The notes beneath the pieces were generated by a model. The model had not been told where the DNA came from and ran no database searches. It saw nothing but the letters and a program-made list of their open reading frames with translations. Shown here in pieces: positions 42,499 through 51,493 of a stretch of DNA of 64,000 nt. Both the position numbers and the translations under genes were made by a program. Origin of the DNA: Halegenticoccus soli (GTDB taxonomy: Archaea; Halobacteriota; Halobacteria; Halobacteriales; Haloferacaceae); contig NZ_PEND01000003.1 in NCBI RefSeq assembly GCF_002844195.1, positions 124,001 to 188,000 on the forward strand. The letters run 5' to 3'. Positions within the stretch are counted from its first letter, which is position 1. Every line of letters begins with the position of its first letter.

Positions 42499-42602
42499 GG
42501 TAAGGGGTGTGACGAGGAGTTATAAATGCATTACGAGTCGCAGAATCGACCGACGAGCAGGATTTATCACGTGACCTACCGACAGACAGTGTGAGGACGA
42601 GT

Positions 42603-43910
42603 ATGACAGAAGGTGTCACGTACTTCAAGGAGACAGAGAGCGAGTCGATCGATATCGACCAGGAAGTAACCGACTCCGTCCGGGACATCCTCTCGGAAGT
42701 CCGACGACGGGGTGACGAGGCGCTCCACGAACTCACGCGGCGGTTCGACGGCGTCGAGCGGGAGGATCTCCGAGTGAGCGACGAGGAGATCGAGACCGCC
42801 GCGGAGGCGCTCTCCGACGAGAAACGGGAGGCGATCGAGAGCACGATCGCCAACGTGCGCGAGTTTCACGAAGAACAGCGAGAACACATCGAGGGGTTCG
42901 AACGGGAGTTCACCGAGGGAATCAGGCTCGGCCAGCGCATCGTTCCCGTCGAGTCCGCAGGGACATACATCCCTGGCGGCCGCCATCCACTGGTCGCAGC
43001 GCCTGCGATGTCGATCGTGCCGGCGAAAGTTGCGGGCGTCGAGACGGTGATCACGTGCGCGCCGCCACAGGAGGACGGAAGCGTCCAGCCGGCGCAGCTG
43101 TACGCGATGGATCGAGCCGGCGCCGACGAGATATACGCCGTTGGCGGTGCGCAGGCGATCGGTGCGATGGCGTACGGCACCGAGACGGTTCCGGCGGTTG
43201 CGAAGGTTACTGGTCCAGGGAACGTCTTCACGACCGAGGCCAAGCGTCAGGTGTTCGGCCATGTAGGGATCGACTTCCTCGCCGGCCCGACGGAGATTCT
43301 GATCGTCGCCGACGAGACTGCCGATCCGGACCTCGTCGCGACTGACCTACTGGCGCAGGCAGAGCACGACCCCAACTCCCGGCCGGTCCTCGTCTCGACG
43401 GACGAAGACCTCGCGAACGCGGCGATCGATTCGGTCCGCGAACAGCTTCCGCATTTACGGACCGAGGAAACTGCCCGCGAGTGCTGGGAGACCAACGGTG
43501 AGGTGCTCGTCGCCGACACTCTGGACAGCGCCGTCGACGTCGCAAACGACTACGCCATTGAACATCTGCACCTAATGATCGACAATCCGCGGTCGATCGT
43601 TGACGACCTCCACAACTACGGGTCGCTCTTCCTCGGCGAACACTCGCCGGTTGTCTTCGGCGACAAGGCGGTCGGGACGAATCATAGCCTCCCGACGCTC
43701 GAAGTCGCCCGGTACAGCGGCGGGATCTGGGTCGGAACGTATCTGAAGACACTCACCCACCAGCAGGCGACGGCCGAGGGCGCAGCGCGAATCGCCCCGC
43801 TCGCGGCGAAGATCTGCGAACTGGAAGGCACGCACGCACACCAGCTTTCCGCGGAGGCTCGAATCCCCAGCGACATCCGGAACGACGGGACGGAGGTCGA
43901 AGACGACTGA
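42603..43910 (+). CDS. HisD-family dehydrogenase, sulfopropanediol 3-dehydrogenase (HpsN)-like
   Basis: A 435-residue histidinol-dehydrogenase-family enzyme. DLLAQAEHDPNS carries the zinc-ligand Gln/His, EHLHLMI the catalytic Glu-His, and GTHAHQLS a C-terminal His. The tail YGSLFLGEHSPVVFGDKAVG then TNHSLPTLEVARYSGG resembles remembered HpsN proteins, which oxidise the primary alcohol of 2,3-dihydroxypropanesulfonate to sulfolactate. In a catabolic island with an SDR, a Zn dehydrogenase and a nearby symporter, a histidine-biosynthesis role is less likely. GAGGA lies 6 nt before the ATG; an in-frame GTG at 42591 fits a leaderless start. Confidence 0.82.
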   Translation: MTEGVTYFKETESESIDIDQEVTDSVRDILSEVRRRGDEALHELTRRFDGVEREDLRVSDEEIETAAEALSDEKREAIESTIANVREFHEEQREHIEGFEREFTEGIRLGQRIVPVESAGTYIPGGRHPLVAAPAMSIVPAKVAGVETVITCAPPQEDGSVQPAQLYAMDRAGADEIYAVGGAQAIGAMAYGTETVPAVAKVTGPGNVFTTEAKRQVFGHVGIDFLAGPTEILIVADETADPDLVATDLLAQAEHDPNSRPVLVSTDEDLANAAIDSVREQLPHLRTEETARECWETNGEVLVADTLDSAVDVANDYAIEHLHLMIDNPRSIVDDLHNYGSLFLGEHSPVVFGDKAVGTNHSLPTLEVARYSGGIWVGTYLKTLTHQQATAEGAARIAPLAAKICELEGTHAHQLSAEARIPSDIRNDGTEVEDD

Positions 43911-44068: not shown

Positions 44069-44647
44069 TCAGTATTTCTCTTGATAAACTTCCTCGTAGT
44101 ATCCCTTTATAGGCTTGAGTGAGACGAGTTCTTCCACCTGTTTGGTGAGCCCGCTGACGGCGAAACTATTGGCCACTGTTCCGTAGTCCACCACCCAGTA
44201 CGGAACGTATATGAGTTCCAGCTCGTCGAGGGAGAAATCTGGACGTTTGAACGGGCGAAATCGGCGATCAACGTACGAAAAAAGCCAATCCTTCCACTCT
44301 TCTCTGGCTTCGTCCGGCGTTAACTCCCGGGCGATCACCTTGTCAGGATCCGCTTCGACGGTGTTCCGTGATGGTAGTTCGATGTCTATTTCGCCGACAC
44401 GACCGGTCACAGCATCGATGCCGACGAGGAATTTCTGGGTTCGATCGCTTGTGAGGTAGTGATACAACTCCACGGTCGTGAAGGCGATGTAGTCAGGATA
44501 GTAGACGATCGAAACATCGAGAGGTTCCTCGGAAATCCCGAGCAACGCGGCCGCCCTCGCTCGCAGAAACGTGCCAATCGTAATTCGGTCAGCGCGAGCG
44601 ACCGCAGTTTCGGCGTCAAGCCGCGGGTCGAACGTCCGAATCTCCAT
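44069..44647 (-). CDS. Uncharacterised protein next to the sodium symporter
   Basis: A 192-residue soluble protein of unknown family. It has an N-terminal segment (ARADRITIGTFLRARAAALL), a beta-rich centre around VSIVYYPDYIAFTTVELYHY and LVGIDAVTGRVGEIDIELPS, and a C-terminal ELIYVPYWVVDYG. The 'YVPYWVVDY' phrase resembles small domains found in proteins with a single-sheet fold, but I cannot name one. It lies 44 bp downstream of the symporter gene on the same strand and is probably cotranscribed, so a role in transporter function or regulation is possible. GC is a little lower than surrounding genes. Confidence 0.75.
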   Translation of the reverse strand: MEIRTFDPRLDAETAVARADRITIGTFLRARAAALLGISEEPLDVSIVYYPDYIAFTTVELYHYLTSDRTQKFLVGIDAVTGRVGEIDIELPSRNTVEADPDKVIARELTPDEAREEWKDWLFSYVDRRFRPFKRPDFSLDELELIYVPYWVVDYGTVANSFAVSGLTKQVEELVSLKPIKGYYEEVYQEKY

Positions 44648-44691
44648 CGATGGATAACACGTCTCTGCGATTACTTAGTGATTGGCGTCAC

Positions 44692-46251
44692 TCAATCGTC
44701 GCTGGTACCTCCGTCGGGGGTTACTTCTCGCTCGGGTCGGAACACGTCGTCGAGGTGGCTTTCGGGAAGCGGTTCGGTGAACTTGCTAATCAGGTAGGTG
44801 AGGAAACACGAGCAGACAAATCCTATAGCGGAAGAGGCAAACGGATTCTCATTGTAAGGATACCACCCCTCGTAGAGACCAAATTGTGGCCCTAAGTGGA
44901 TGACGAAGTAGATACCGAAAGAGACGATAAACGCCACAAGAGCGGCCATCTTTGAGGTTTCCTCGCGGAACGTACCTATGAAATACGGACCGCCGTAGGC
45001 CGCGATGATGCCGCCGATGCCGACCCACAGGAGAATCGCCAGGTATTCGGGCGGCGTCATCACGGCGGCTACAGCCGCGATCGTCACGACAATCGTCGAG
45101 ACCCGCGAAATCCACAGCGCTCGCTGATTCACCCGATCACTGTTGGGGTCGCCTCCCGTCCAAGGGACGTACGACTTCCGATAGAGATCGTTGGCGAAGA
45201 TCTGTGAAACCGCGATAATCAGCCCGTCGGCCGTAGAAATGATCGCGCTGAGAATCGCCACACCGAGGAACGCAGCCAGTATCGGAGGGAGGTTTTCCAC
45301 GAAGAGCATCGGAATGATTGCGTCGGGATTTTCGATTTGAATCCCCTGGGCGCGTCCGAGAACACCGCCTAAAAACATCAACGGCAGTGCCATACCGATA
45401 ACTGCGGCGACGCTCATGAACTTCTTCATGTACTGTGTCCCTTTGATCGCGAAGAACTTGTTACCGAGATGAGGGAGCGCGGTAAAGCCGATGTGTGCGA
45501 TGAACAGAAGGAAGATTACCCACCAATTCGCGAACGTCGGGTTAGCTGGATCCGTATGGGAGTCCCACTGCATCTCAGCGGGCAGCGCGGCGTTGACTCC
45601 AGTGATGCCTCCATCGACTCCCCACCCCGTGACGAACATCACTACGATCAGAACCGTAACGCCAACCATGATAACGCCCTGAACCGCGTCGGTGATGATA
45701 TCGGCGTGTGATCCCCCTGCGGTCAAGTACAGGAGGAGCAACCCACCGGCAACCCAAATCGCCAATTCATACTGCAAGCCGAGAATGGTGTCGAACATCC
45801 ATCCTGCTGCAGCGATTTGCGCCATGATGTAAAAGAGCAAAAACAGCGCCAGCAGAGCGGCTAAAAGGCGCAGCAGTGGACTCTGATAGCGGTCACCGAG
45901 GAAATCGGGCACTGATTGGGAACCGAATCGATCACCCACCTTCTTGGTGATGCGAGCGACGAACAGCATCCCCAGATAGATACCGATGGGATAGATAAGA
46001 GCATAGTATCCGGCCTTGAAACCCATTCCATAGGCCATACCGGGGATGCCCATGAACGTCGATCCGCTGGCGACTGTCGCCGCGTAGGCGAAGGCCAATG
46101 CGAGAAATCCGAACCCTCCGCGGGCGGTTGCGTAGTCGTCCTGAGAGTCCGTTCGTTTGTATCCTAAATAGCCAAGACCGATCATCAAAAGAATATATGC
46201 GATGAGAAAGCCCCACCCCCAAGTCACGATTGTCCTCTCAACCTCGACCAT
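44692..46251 (-). CDS. Sodium:solute symporter (SSS family)
   Basis: A 519-residue membrane protein with about 13 hydrophobic helices. Characteristic segments are GGFGFLALAFAYAATVASGS, the GxPGMAYG loop, SVPDFLGDRYQS, AVQGVIMVG and AILSAIISTADGLIIAVSQI (sodium-site Ser/Thr). The C-terminus is acidic and cytoplasmic. The family takes up sugars, acetate, proline, pantothenate and other organic solutes. The start codon overlaps the stop of a one-helix small protein (TAATG). Position beside the HpsN-like gene makes a sulfonate or small organic acid a candidate substrate. Confidence 0.92.
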   Translation of the reverse strand: MVEVERTIVTWGWGFLIAYILLMIGLGYLGYKRTDSQDDYATARGGFGFLALAFAYAATVASGSTFMGIPGMAYGMGFKAGYYALIYPIGIYLGMLFVARITKKVGDRFGSQSVPDFLGDRYQSPLLRLLAALLALFLLFYIMAQIAAAGWMFDTILGLQYELAIWVAGGLLLLYLTAGGSHADIITDAVQGVIMVGVTVLIVVMFVTGWGVDGGITGVNAALPAEMQWDSHTDPANPTFANWWVIFLLFIAHIGFTALPHLGNKFFAIKGTQYMKKFMSVAAVIGMALPLMFLGGVLGRAQGIQIENPDAIIPMLFVENLPPILAAFLGVAILSAIISTADGLIIAVSQIFANDLYRKSYVPWTGGDPNSDRVNQRALWISRVSTIVVTIAAVAAVMTPPEYLAILLWVGIGGIIAAYGGPYFIGTFREETSKMAALVAFIVSFGIYFVIHLGPQFGLYEGWYPYNENPFASSAIGFVCSCFLTYLISKFTEPLPESHLDDVFRPEREVTPDGGTSDD

Positions 46252-46391
46252 TAGTGTCGACCTCCGTTACCGTTCATCGACGCTCGTTCTTCTTCCCTCG
46301 TTTGAAGGAGATCCTCCATCTTGGTTATCCACAGCGCTACGAATACGAAGTACGCGATCGTCGTTATCGTTAGGATTTGCAAGACATTCAC
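46251..46391 (-). CDS. Small one-helix membrane protein coupled to the symporter (46 aa)
   Basis: From a GTG at 46391 the minus strand encodes VNVLQILTITTIAYFVFVAL, then WITKMEDLLQTREEERASMN and GNGGRH. It has one transmembrane helix, then a basic/acidic amphipathic tail. Its TAA shares bases with the symporter ATG (TAATG). Small membrane partners precede several SSS transporters, so it is likely a subunit. A TATA-like element (AATTTAAT reading) lies ~35 bp upstream. Confidence 0.65.
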   Translation of the reverse strand: MNVLQILTITTIAYFVFVALWITKMEDLLQTREEERASMNGNGGRH

Positions 46392-48049: not shown

Positions 48050-50170
48050 TTACTTGCGCTCCACCTTCCCCGTCTGTGGCCGTTTTCTGCTCGTGGAGCC
48101 GACCGTACGGCGGAGAACGCCGATCGGTTTCGGTCGTCCGACGGCCGTCTGGACAACGTACATCGCGACGGCGACAATCAGGGCGAGCGCCTGCACCAGC
48201 CGTGAGGGATGTAGCATCATGACGATGCCCGTCACAGTGAACGCGAATCGGGCCGGGAGAGTAATTGGCTTGCCGAACGCGAACGGATAGTTGATTCCGT
48301 GGATCATCGCAATTGCACCGACCATCGCGAATGCGCCGGTTAGAAACACCTGCGTATCGAACTGTGCGGAGACCATCTCGGGATGGTAGACGAACGCGAA
48401 CGGGAGGACGAACAACGGCGCCGAGAGCTTGACGGCCTCCCAGCAGCTCTTCCAGAAGTCGGCACCCGCTATACCACAGGCCACGGCGACGCAGGTCGCG
48501 ATCGGTGGTGTGAGCCCAGCGAGGATCGCGGCGTAGAACACGAAGAAGTGTCCCGCGAGCTCTGGGAGAAAGAACTGGTTGATGAGTGTCGGTGCGATGA
48601 GCAGCGCAACGATGGTGTACGATGCCGTTGTCGGCATTCCGAGTCCGAGGATAATGCAGATGATCATCGCAAGGACGGCCGCGACCCAGAGCACGCCACC
48701 TGAGAGTTCCATCAGCGTGAGCGAGATAGACGTTGGGACGCCGGTCGCGGTGAGGACGTCCACAACGCCGTTAATCGCACCGAGAATGATCGCAACCGGC
48801 GCAAGGACGACCACACCCTCACGCGCACCATCGAGCGTCTCCCAGACGCTGCGCCGAGCAGATGCCGAGATGGATTCGTCGCTCATCCCCGCCATGGCCA
48901 AGAGCAGAGGCGTCAGTGTGCCGGTAAGCAGCATCGCCGTGGCCGTCCACAGCGCCGCTGTCATCACCGTCACCTGCTCGATCCCCAACTTGTATATCAG
49001 GATCGCCAGCGGAACCCCGTATTTCACAATCTCAATTAGGAACGCCATACGCGGCATTGGATCTTGGATAAGGTCTTCGGGGTCTGTGTTGTCGAGTTGC
49101 GGCACGGAGACGTAATGGACCGCGATGAAAATCGTCACCACTAGCACCGCCGCCGGAATCAGGCCAGCGACGATGACGTCTGCGTAGGTGATCCCAGTGA
49201 TTAGCGACGCCATGATGAACGCGGCGGCACCCATGACCGGCGGAAGCACTTGCCCCGAGGTAGAGGCGACGGCCTCAATCGCACCCGCGGTCTCGGGTTT
49301 AATCCCGTTACGCTTCATCAGTGGGATGGTGAACGATCCGGTCATGCCGGCGTTGGCGGTTTGGCTCCCGTTGACTGACCCGATGACAGCGGACGACAGC
49401 ACCGCGGTCTGTGCGATTCCAGAGTCGATGTACCGGGCCGAGCGGAACGCCAGGCGCATGATCAGATCAAACGCACCGTAGGCCTTCAAAAAGCCCGCAT
49501 AGAGCAGGAACAGAGCAATCCACGCCGCGACGAGTTGGGTTAGAAACCCGAAGAACCCGTCGACGCTGAGGACGAAAATGCGCATGAGTCGATCCCAGCC
49601 AATGCCGCCATGCGCAAGTGGACCGGGGGCGAACATGCCCCACCGACCGTAGGCGATCCCCAGTAGAATAATCGATAAGAACGTCGTGCCGAACGACCGC
49701 CACGTTAGGTAGATGACGACGAGTGTAAAGATCGCCGCCATGTAGATCTCGTGCTGGAATGCGCGCCCCTGTCTGGTGACGTACAGCGTCTGGAAATTTA
49801 TTGCGATGTACGCGCAGGTGATCGCCACGTCGATCGCCGAGAGTGTGAGCAGCGCCGACTCAATCCGGTTTGCCTGGCCGTAGACCCGCTTGAGGTCGAC
49901 AAAGAGCTCGTCTCGCCCACCGCCCGCGAGATCCATCAGCTCAGAGAGTATGAACAACTCGAGGACGGCACCGAAGAAGATGACGCCGTACTGGGCCCGT
50001 GGAATAGTCTGGTCCCAGGCGTACCAGATGACAATCATCCAGAAGACGACTGAAAGCCCGATGAGGACGTTGCGCATTGACTCAGCCTCAGCATCGCCCG
50101 GACTTTCAGTGTCGAATCCCTGCCCAGTCTCGGGTTCAAAGTCGTCTGATAGCGGTTCGCTCACGGCCAT
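48050..50170 (-). CDS. TRAP transporter, fused membrane subunits (4TM/12TM)
   Basis: A 706-residue membrane protein. The N-terminal ~170 residues form the small four-helix part (DctQ-like) and the rest the large DctM domain, with signatures GSVNGSQTANAGMTGSFTIP and GLGMPTTASYTIVALLIAPT. Such fusions pair with TAXI receptors. The C-terminus ends in a basic tail. The receptor gene at 50293-51375 lies 122 bp upstream on the same strand. The importer is driven by an ion gradient and typically carries carboxylates. Confidence 0.94.
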   Translation of the reverse strand: MAVSEPLSDDFEPETGQGFDTESPGDAEAESMRNVLIGLSVVFWMIVIWYAWDQTIPRAQYGVIFFGAVLELFILSELMDLAGGGRDELFVDLKRVYGQANRIESALLTLSAIDVAITCAYIAINFQTLYVTRQGRAFQHEIYMAAIFTLVVIYLTWRSFGTTFLSIILLGIAYGRWGMFAPGPLAHGGIGWDRLMRIFVLSVDGFFGFLTQLVAAWIALFLLYAGFLKAYGAFDLIMRLAFRSARYIDSGIAQTAVLSSAVIGSVNGSQTANAGMTGSFTIPLMKRNGIKPETAGAIEAVASTSGQVLPPVMGAAAFIMASLITGITYADVIVAGLIPAAVLVVTIFIAVHYVSVPQLDNTDPEDLIQDPMPRMAFLIEIVKYGVPLAILIYKLGIEQVTVMTAALWTATAMLLTGTLTPLLLAMAGMSDESISASARRSVWETLDGAREGVVVLAPVAIILGAINGVVDVLTATGVPTSISLTLMELSGGVLWVAAVLAMIICIILGLGMPTTASYTIVALLIAPTLINQFFLPELAGHFFVFYAAILAGLTPPIATCVAVACGIAGADFWKSCWEAVKLSAPLFVLPFAFVYHPEMVSAQFDTQVFLTGAFAMVGAIAMIHGINYPFAFGKPITLPARFAFTVTGIVMMLHPSRLVQALALIVAVAMYVVQTAVGRPKPIGVLRRTVGSTSRKRPQTGKVERK

Positions 50171-50292
50171 TCACCTCGCCCAACCATCAGTAATCTAACG
50201 TTTGTTGTGTGTTCTTGCATGATATGTGGTCGCGATCACGGTGGCGTCCGAGCCATGTCCAGATACGCGGAACGTTCGCTCCGAGTAGAGAG

Positions 50293-51375
50293 TCACTCAT
50301 CCGTCGCACCTTCTTGCCACTCATCGTTCCAAACATCATTTTCCTTCCAGTACTTGGCAACGCCCGGGTGGATCTCGAGTTCGGGGAGGATCGCGGTAGT
50401 CATCGACTTGACGCCCGAGTGGTCAAGCGCGGTCGGGTCGGCCTCGCGGATAGACTCGTGATGTTCGGCAGAGAGGCGGGCAACCTCCTTGGCCGCATCG
50501 ACGGGGACCTCGGGGCCAAATGCCCACTGACCGGCGAGGACCCATGCGGCGGTGGTATCCGTGACGCGGGTGACGTCTTGCTCCCACTTATAGGGATAGT
50601 TATCAAACTCCTTCAGGATTGCACCGGGTACGGTCTCAATAGCCTGGCGGAAGTTGTCGTCGATCTGCATGAGGTACAAGCTACCGTTACTTCGGACGTC
50701 AACCTCCTGCACCCAGCTAGAGAGGTTGACGCCGTTCGCGCCGTAGATACAGAGGGCATCAACACGTCCCTCCTCAACGGCACCGGGGATGTCACTGGTG
50801 TCAACGTTGAGGATCTCGTTCTGATCCCAGAGACCCGCCTTCTTGATCACTTCTTCAGTGAGCAAGCGAGTCCCAAAGCCAGGCTGGATCGGGTAGATGG
50901 TGTAGCCACCCTCTTTGAGATCAGCAGTTGACTTGATGCCTGATCCCTCCATTGCGACCCAGTGAATTTCGAGGTTTGTAAAGACGAACCCTTGCATCGG
51001 GAGGGAGTCAACCGGGTCCTCTGCAAATGGCCCCTCATTATTCATCGCCTTCGAGAGAGAGTTGTTGTCAACACCGATCGTGTGGAAGTTGTCGTCGTTG
51101 TACTCGTAGAGGTTTGCCGTCCAGCCGTCGGTGACTTGGACGGTGATAGAGAGGTTATCACTGTGCTGGCTAGCAGCCCGCGCAAGGGCCTGAGCAGCCT
51201 GTTGTGTCGACGATCCGGAACTGGTGCCGGCGATGACCATCTGATACTGTTCGCCGCCACCGCCGCTACCGCCACTGCTGCCAGTGATCGTCTCAGTACA
51301 GCCAGCCAAACTTATCGCCCCGAGCGTCGTTCCCCATTTCGTTACCTCACGGCGAGATATGTTATCTTCAGGCAT
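50293..51375 (-). CDS. TRAP transporter solute receptor, TAXI family (lipoprotein)
   Basis: A 360-residue receptor. The Tat signal (SRREVTKWG) ends in a lipobox (SLAGC), followed by a Gly/Ser linker (SSGGSGGGGEQ). The TAXI core has VIAGTSSGSSTQQAAQALAR, VQVTDGWTANLYEYN and IHWVAMEGSG; later stretches EGRVDALCIYGANG and IDDNFRQAIETVPGA match the family. It feeds the fused TRAP channel at 48050. The organic-acid genes upstream on the same strand suggest a di- or tricarboxylate ligand. Confidence 0.93.
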   Translation of the reverse strand: MPEDNISRREVTKWGTTLGAISLAGCTETITGSSGGSGGGGEQYQMVIAGTSSGSSTQQAAQALARAASQHSDNLSITVQVTDGWTANLYEYNDDNFHTIGVDNNSLSKAMNNEGPFAEDPVDSLPMQGFVFTNLEIHWVAMEGSGIKSTADLKEGGYTIYPIQPGFGTRLLTEEVIKKAGLWDQNEILNVDTSDIPGAVEEGRVDALCIYGANGVNLSSWVQEVDVRSNGSLYLMQIDDNFRQAIETVPGAILKEFDNYPYKWEQDVTRVTDTTAAWVLAGQWAFGPEVPVDAAKEVARLSAEHHESIREADPTALDHSGVKSMTTAILPELEIHPGVAKYWKENDVWNDEWQEGATDE

Positions 51376-51493
51376 GCACAATCGATGACTCTCATTGTTA
51401 TTCATAAATGTTTTGTCTTCCGTAACGGTCAAGACAGCGTGTATTAGACTCGGGGGAGATCAACAGTAAATAAAGAAGTTCTGATGTCGCCTT

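Follow-up and report, generated by a model that had tools for sequence, protein, structure and literature searches.

Organization of the three-gene unit

The window analysed here is the whole 64,000-nucleotide stretch of Halegenticoccus soli DNA (contig NZ_PEND01000003.1, positions 124,001 to 188,000 of the forward strand). It carries a unit of three closely spaced genes on the minus strand, read from position 46391 to 44069 in the order peptide, symporter and soluble protein (Table 1). The first gene encodes a single hydrophobic helix followed by a charged tail, with a best 17-residue Kyte-Doolittle mean of 2.29. The base at position 46251 is common to the TAA stop codon of this ORF and the ATG start codon of the next, which creates a TAATG overlap. 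The second gene encodes a sodium:solute symporter (SSS), and its stop codon is followed after a gap of 44 bp by the gene of the soluble protein. When the ORF coordinates were re-read, all three ORFs, their strand, the overlap and the spacing were found where the first-pass annotation had placed them. That annotation had also considered the peptide gene too short for routine calling, which is borne out by one of three annotated plasmid relatives, where the gene is omitted, but not by the other two, where it is listed as a hypothetical protein. A second trio is encoded in the same genome approximately 100 kb before the start of the window, again with all genes on the minus strand.

Table 1. Coordinates of the three-gene unit, of the second trio in the same genome and of two neighbouring genes; unprefixed positions are those of the window
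Feature	Position	Strand	Remarks
One-helix peptide, 46 aa	46251..46391	-	GTG start; conserved 5' of orthologous symporters; third-position-biased divergence
Sodium:solute symporter (SSS/SLC5 family), 519 aa, predicted transport core	44692..46251	-	ATG start; PF00474 match; Foldseek
Soluble alpha/beta protein, 192 aa, unnamed family	44069..44647	-	Alignment A1; model; SSS linkage; fusion at L166
Second trio, peptide	just upstream of SSS	-	
Second trio, SSS	C3:20236-21516	-	
Second trio, soluble protein	C3:19449-19886	-	
HisD-like dehydrogenase	42591-43910		Second genome copy at C1:869238, 44% identical
Fused TRAP transporter permease and TAXI-type binding protein	48050-51432	-	TIGR02123, 390.7 bits; just upstream of the trio's neighbours

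Families and predicted folds of the symporter and soluble protein

The symporter is a member of the SSS/SLC5 family, with a score of 144.6 bits against PF00474 (cut-off 22.8). It scores below every NCBIfam equivalog cut-off (PutP, PanF, ActP, MctC and MctP), the best being panF (164.8 bits; cut-off 328.05), and family membership therefore does not reveal its substrate. The AlphaFold model of the protein (pLDDT 83.5) displays the SSS fold, which is LeuT-type as in the solved SSS structures. Its best Foldseek matches are the sialic acid symporter SiaT (5nva; E 4.9e-14, probability 1.00) and human SGLT2-MAP17 (8hb0).

The soluble protein was originally described as having no recognised family, and Pfam and NCBIfam searches agree, as neither this protein nor the peptide produced anything above chance; searches of PDB sequences with the soluble protein were likewise empty. 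An alignment of 34 sequences of the soluble family (profile A1) contains only two invariant residues, P51 and D88. The structural model built from the family alignment has a pLDDT of 91.5, and when it was searched against PDB folds no match was credible (lowest Foldseek E 0.058, highest VIA Z 5.2). The best hit of a viral fold search had an E-value of 7.8e-5 with an rmsd of 16.6 and is not credible. A repeated "Y-P-x-x ... D-x-x-T-G" pattern is present in the protein, and profile-profile comparison of the two halves gave a local E-value of 0.0012 in a single comparison, with a probability of 19%. These values are suggestive only of a possible internal duplication.

Conservation of the trio in haloarchaea and bacteria

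Orthologous loci were collected as a set of 25 that encode relatives of the symporter in haloarchaea, Actinobacteria and Firmicutes. In 21 of these a one-helix peptide ORF runs up to the symporter start, stopping there or slightly short of it; the 21 include haloarchaea, Actinobacteria (Ornithinimicrobium, Allosalinactinospora and Nocardiopsis), Clostridiales and Bacillaceae. Absence of the small ORF upstream of orthologous symporters had been named at first pass as the outcome that would count against the proposal, and it did not occur. Of the other four loci, one begins at a contig edge (L015) and the other three (L030-L032) encode symporters of only 36-38% identity in alphaproteobacterial and myxobacterial MAGs, where the soluble family is also missing from the whole genomes. 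The soluble gene adjoins the symporter in 22 of the 25 relatives, 18 identified by tblastn and four more by profile. At one MAG locus (L020/L036/L072), the orthologous symporter frame is broken, with residues 1-330 and 445-515 remaining, and the peptide and soluble genes are intact.

Among 293 Halobacteriales genomes, the symporter is present in 11 (E<=1e-120) and a homologue of the soluble protein occurs in the same 11 (E<=1e-44). Another 15 genomes gave only weak matches to the soluble protein, which are real relatives in a new setting. Profile A1 located the soluble family in 68 of the 293 genomes, at 80 places in total. The remaining 225 genomes are without it, which indicates that many SSS symporters work without the soluble protein. 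At 70 of the 80 places the soluble gene directly follows an SSS gene on the same strand, as separate genes in 69 cases and as a single fused gene in one; at five others the SSS gene lies tail-to-tail with the soluble gene, so that 75 of 80 are next to an SSS gene. At three places all that is left of the SSS gene is a remnant or the scar of a deletion (L168, L176 and L175), and two have no SSS gene nearby (L131, G256:C1; L174, G190:C2), from which it follows that the soluble protein can persist alone. L131 had been considered as a second fusion with a frame of 705 aa, and this candidate was dropped since the frame holds no SSS. The fused gene (L166, G227:C2:710900-716157) encodes a natural fusion of 721 aa in which a PutP-like SSS occupies residues 10-499 and the soluble domain residues 570-719. 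The soluble protein, which was the least certain member of the unit at first pass, is therefore linked as tightly as the peptide, given its occurrence in the same 11 genomes as the symporter, its position beside SSS genes of several further subfamilies and this fusion.

The SSS partners of the soluble family span several subfamilies. Many are PutP-like (366-370 bits to TIGR02121, cut-off 515.5) and others fall between PutP and PanF. Pairwise distances between the SSS proteins and between the soluble proteins of 60 chosen loci are correlated (r = 0.93; 0 of 2000 permutations), as expected of long co-inheritance.

Several loci deviate from the usual arrangement. In five genomes (L163, L164, L165, L167 and L177) the soluble gene is located behind an oxidoreductase gene and tail-to-tail with the SSS gene; the oxidoreductase looks FAD-dependent from a GGGIMG motif recognized by eye. 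Among the decaying copies, L175 (G017) has lost the symporter and retains a peptide-like stretch next to a truncated soluble gene, and L168 (G249) and L176 (G229) contain symporter remnants only.

The first-pass annotation had suggested that gene-neighbourhood conservation be examined in other haloarchaea; the trio recurs there, and it is also found in bacteria. Of 14 bacterial genomes to which the first loci had led, 11 contain the soluble family by profile A1, as do 6 of 249 genomes in a sample of one Firmicutes-side phylum, 2 of 246 in an Actinobacteria sample and 11 of 151 in a sample of a Bacillaceae-side family, all three samples including the starting genomes. Each of the 23 bacterial places has an SSS gene on the same strand, directly adjoining in 22 and after an 870-nt gap in one, and a one-helix ORF was found by inspection at every SSS start. 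The order is soluble protein, peptide, SSS in 12 of the 23 places, in place of peptide, SSS, soluble protein, so the linkage survives rearrangement. The original observation was correct, and larger in extent than first thought.

The one-helix peptide is a real gene

Inside the window's clade the peptide is present in 10 of 11 places, the eleventh being at a contig edge. Outside this clade, all 59 places with a same-strand or fused SSS have a one-helix ORF at the symporter start. This count is partly a judgement by eye. The rule was satisfied at 52 of 59 loci, equivalent to 51 of 58 distinct loci because one place had been fetched twice; the seven that it missed were all found by eye, as was the ORF of the fusion. 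A one-helix ORF likewise accompanies each of the five convergent SSS genes; it is complete in four, and in the fifth only its tail remains.

SSS paralogs of the same genome that have no adjacent soluble gene could not be used as a negative control because most of them bear a short hydrophobic ORF at their start. Random positions and the other genes of the window were used in their place. Applying the same rule within the window, a short hydrophobic ORF was detected at the start of the symporter gene and at none of 17 other genes tested. Of random positions in related haloarchaeal loci, 247 of 4000 (approximately 6%) satisfied the rule with a search span matched to it, and 169 of 6000 did so with a narrower span. 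A chance hydrophobic, out-of-frame ORF of a GC-rich genome, located beside an operon of unrelated genes, would draw on this background rate, but such a reading is contradicted by the 51 of 58 distinct loci that satisfy the rule, with the ORF visible by eye in the remainder, by the 35-53% identity of the peptides to the haloarchaeal peptides of the window's clade, and by their synonymous bias. Conservation across phyla already refutes it, and we give this reading practically no credence.

Codon differences among 11 related haloarchaeal peptides number 554, 260 and 766 at the first, second and third positions, respectively (1595 codon pairs), and this concentration at third positions is the pattern of a translated gene. 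On this sequence evidence, we regard the small ORF as a real gene.

A coding ORF might still serve to control how much symporter is made, as a leader peptide or translational coupler whose product has no role in the membrane, and a coupler would require the position seen at almost all loci, where the ORF touches or overlaps the start of the symporter gene. We consider this very improbable, as it is the residues and not only the open frame that are conserved, a hydrophobic helix with a charged tail being retained from haloarchaea to Bacillaceae with third-position-biased change, and as the peptide stays in bacteria where the gene order varies.

The sequence type of the peptide tracks the type of symporter: the window's clade, for example, has MNVLQVL...W..KMED, and the PutP-like clade has MSTLDWIGLVVPFVVFFVMLIVYYVWEGRRERRLREEY. 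Across subfamilies the peptides are 10 to 53% identical to that of the window, and they are too short and varied for sequence comparison to prove one common ancestor for all subfamilies. In every clade there is almost no charge before the helix and many charged residues after it, which by the positive-inside rule would place the tail inside the cell. The name "symporter small accessory protein", which we take to be an NCBI protein name, returned no Pfam or NCBIfam match and no open-access PMC paper bearing it.

In the same genome (G000), a short or hydrophobic ORF runs up to the start of seven of the eight SSS genes inspected, namely the window gene, L002-L006 and L008, with L007 the exception. 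The ORFs at L003 and L004 are one-helix ORFs at SSS genes that have no soluble-family gene.

Neighbouring genes and possible substrate

The genes near the trio in the window encode a HisD-like dehydrogenase, an SDR, an alcohol dehydrogenase, a TRAP-TAXI transporter and a CoA-transferase-like protein, the last named by eye and from the annotated neighbours in plasmid relatives. In 6 of the 25 relatives the symporter has the HisD-like gene at a distance of about 4 kb or less, and in two of three annotated plasmid records this gene is also close by. The HisD-like protein of the window is probably catabolic, and the recurrence of the gene near the symporter had pointed to sulfopropanediol as a candidate substrate. 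The best PDB matches are sulfopropanediol dehydrogenase (307 bits) and histidinol dehydrogenase (302 bits); these scores do not separate the two enzymes. Other orthologous neighbourhoods include CoA-transferase, acyl-CoA dehydrogenase and MmgE/PrpD genes. Together, the catabolic dehydrogenase and the CoA-transferase genes suggest an oxidised small organic compound or organic acid as the substrate, perhaps a sulfonate.

A proposed three-part symporter

We consider it likely that the three genes encode one cation-coupled SSS (SLC5-type) uptake system with three parts. The first-pass idea of a two- or three-component symporter gains support from the linkage, the co-distribution and the fusion; a physical complex of the three proteins, its orientation in the membrane and the roles of both partners are inferred. 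Linkage and co-inheritance are also what would be seen if the proteins did no more than act in one pathway.

In the proposed system, the 519-aa symporter would be the LeuT-fold transport core. The 46-aa peptide would be a dedicated one-helix subunit with its N-terminus outside and its charged C-terminus inside, in contact with the symporter's outer helices; by analogy with MAP17 and human SGLT2, the closest working model, it may be needed for symporter folding, stability or activity. The 192-aa protein is predicted to be a subunit in the cytosol, bound to the inner face of the symporter in the region of the symporter's C-terminus. PutP has 13 helices with the N-terminus outside and the C-terminus inside; applying this helix count to the L166 fusion would place its soluble domain in the cytoplasm. 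By analogy with SbtB and SbtA, the soluble protein would most likely gate or tune transport in response to cellular state. This role is the weakest step of the mechanism, coming as it does from analogy for a putative regulator whose fold has no convincing match.

The soluble protein may instead be an enzyme or binding protein for the imported substrate, with a transporter composed of the peptide and symporter only. The peptide-bearing SSS genes L003 and L004, with no soluble protein nearby, indicate that peptide and SSS can do without it, and in the window the soluble gene lies beside catabolic genes. However, a protein that follows several SSS subfamilies, including PutP-like members, is unlikely to be one substrate-specific enzyme; the two invariant residues do not form a catalytic-looking conserved set, and the protein is naturally fused to a symporter in one genome. 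A two-component transporter of this kind is therefore judged unlikely.

Closer to the three-part system is the possibility that the soluble protein is an SbtB-like regulator (PII-like, inhibiting SbtA when AMP-bound) that only shuts the transporter, with the peptide an unrelated stabiliser. SbtA-SbtB and other cytosolic transporter switches are listed in the part of a review available to us (PMC10710835), and in the L166 fusion the soluble domain follows the last symporter helix, on the cytosolic side by the PutP topology given above. The predicted fold matched no PII protein among the Foldseek and VIA matches listed, a result that does not exclude one, and an SbtB-like regulator would itself be a special case of the three-part system. 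We regard this narrower possibility as rather doubtful, though a serious candidate.

More broadly, and more tentatively than for the trio itself, an unnamed class of archaeal and bacterial SSS transporters might consist of obligate three-subunit machines, formed by the core, a one-helix subunit equivalent in function to MAP17, and a gate in the cytosol that belongs to a new family with possibly a new fold. The seven of eight SSS genes with an ORF at their start in this genome raise the possibility that a small subunit is the rule for prokaryotic SSS and not the exception; we hold this broader proposal to be somewhat less probable than its opposite.

SSS symporters are usually studied as lone proteins. 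If a large group of them needs two more subunits, transport assays, heterologous expression and structures that use the core only may fail or mislead. Two protein families would gain a function from gene context, and current annotation would be overlooking these SSS subunits or leaving them unnamed. The one-helix partner would also offer a simple microbial system for asking what MAP17 does in human SGLT2, a long-standing drug target.

Comparison with known systems

MAP17 is a one-helix protein. In the passages of PMC10203128 that we draw on, it is described as an auxiliary subunit of hSGLT2 that binds TM13, stays fixed through the transport cycle and is essential for uptake. Human SGLT2-MAP17 (SLC5A2) resembles the proposed system in its transporter family and fold, being among the best Foldseek matches, and in its dedicated single-helix partner. 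It differs in that the peptide of the trio is encoded beside its transporter and that the trio has a third, soluble partner. No sequence relation was found between MAP17 and the trio peptides: the search of peptide profile A2 against all PDB chains, which contain MAP17 in entries such as 7vsi, gave 22 weak matches with none named MAP17 (E up to 10), one-helix peptides being at the detection limit.

Genes of short membrane proteins lie directly beside SSS genes in several other systems, including YjcH/DUF485 with ActP, YhdT/DUF997 with PanF, DUF4212 and DUF3311. All four of these families are two-helix proteins. The trio peptides are one-helix and match none of these models (0 of 30 peptides in Pfam and NCBIfam, E up to 10). 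The acs-yjcH-actP genes form an operon according to the portion of PMC6498577 consulted.

SbtA-SbtB, as covered in passages of the review cited above (PMC10710835), resembles the proposed three-part system in linking a soluble protein to the cytoplasmic side of a cation symporter. It differs in that no relation to any known family or fold was detectable for the soluble family of the trio. The same passages describe AcrZ, MgtS, MgtU and other one-helix membrane proteins, shorter than about 55 aa, which modulate transporters by binding to them. Their partners are RND pumps, P-type ATPases and other families, and these passages include no SSS with a one-helix partner. A comparable arrangement in haloarchaea is the acs7-HVO_A0155-ssf-uspA28 acetate operon of Haloferax volcanii, which in the available passages of PMC7746861 combines an SSS gene, a "hypothetical protein" gene and a soluble-protein gene on one transcript; its soluble gene, unlike that of the trio, encodes UspA. 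Open-access PMC searches found no literature on an SSS class with both a one-helix and a conserved soluble partner. SSS transporters with small partner genes and one-helix modulators of other transporters are already known; as far as these searches reach, the SSS trio is new.
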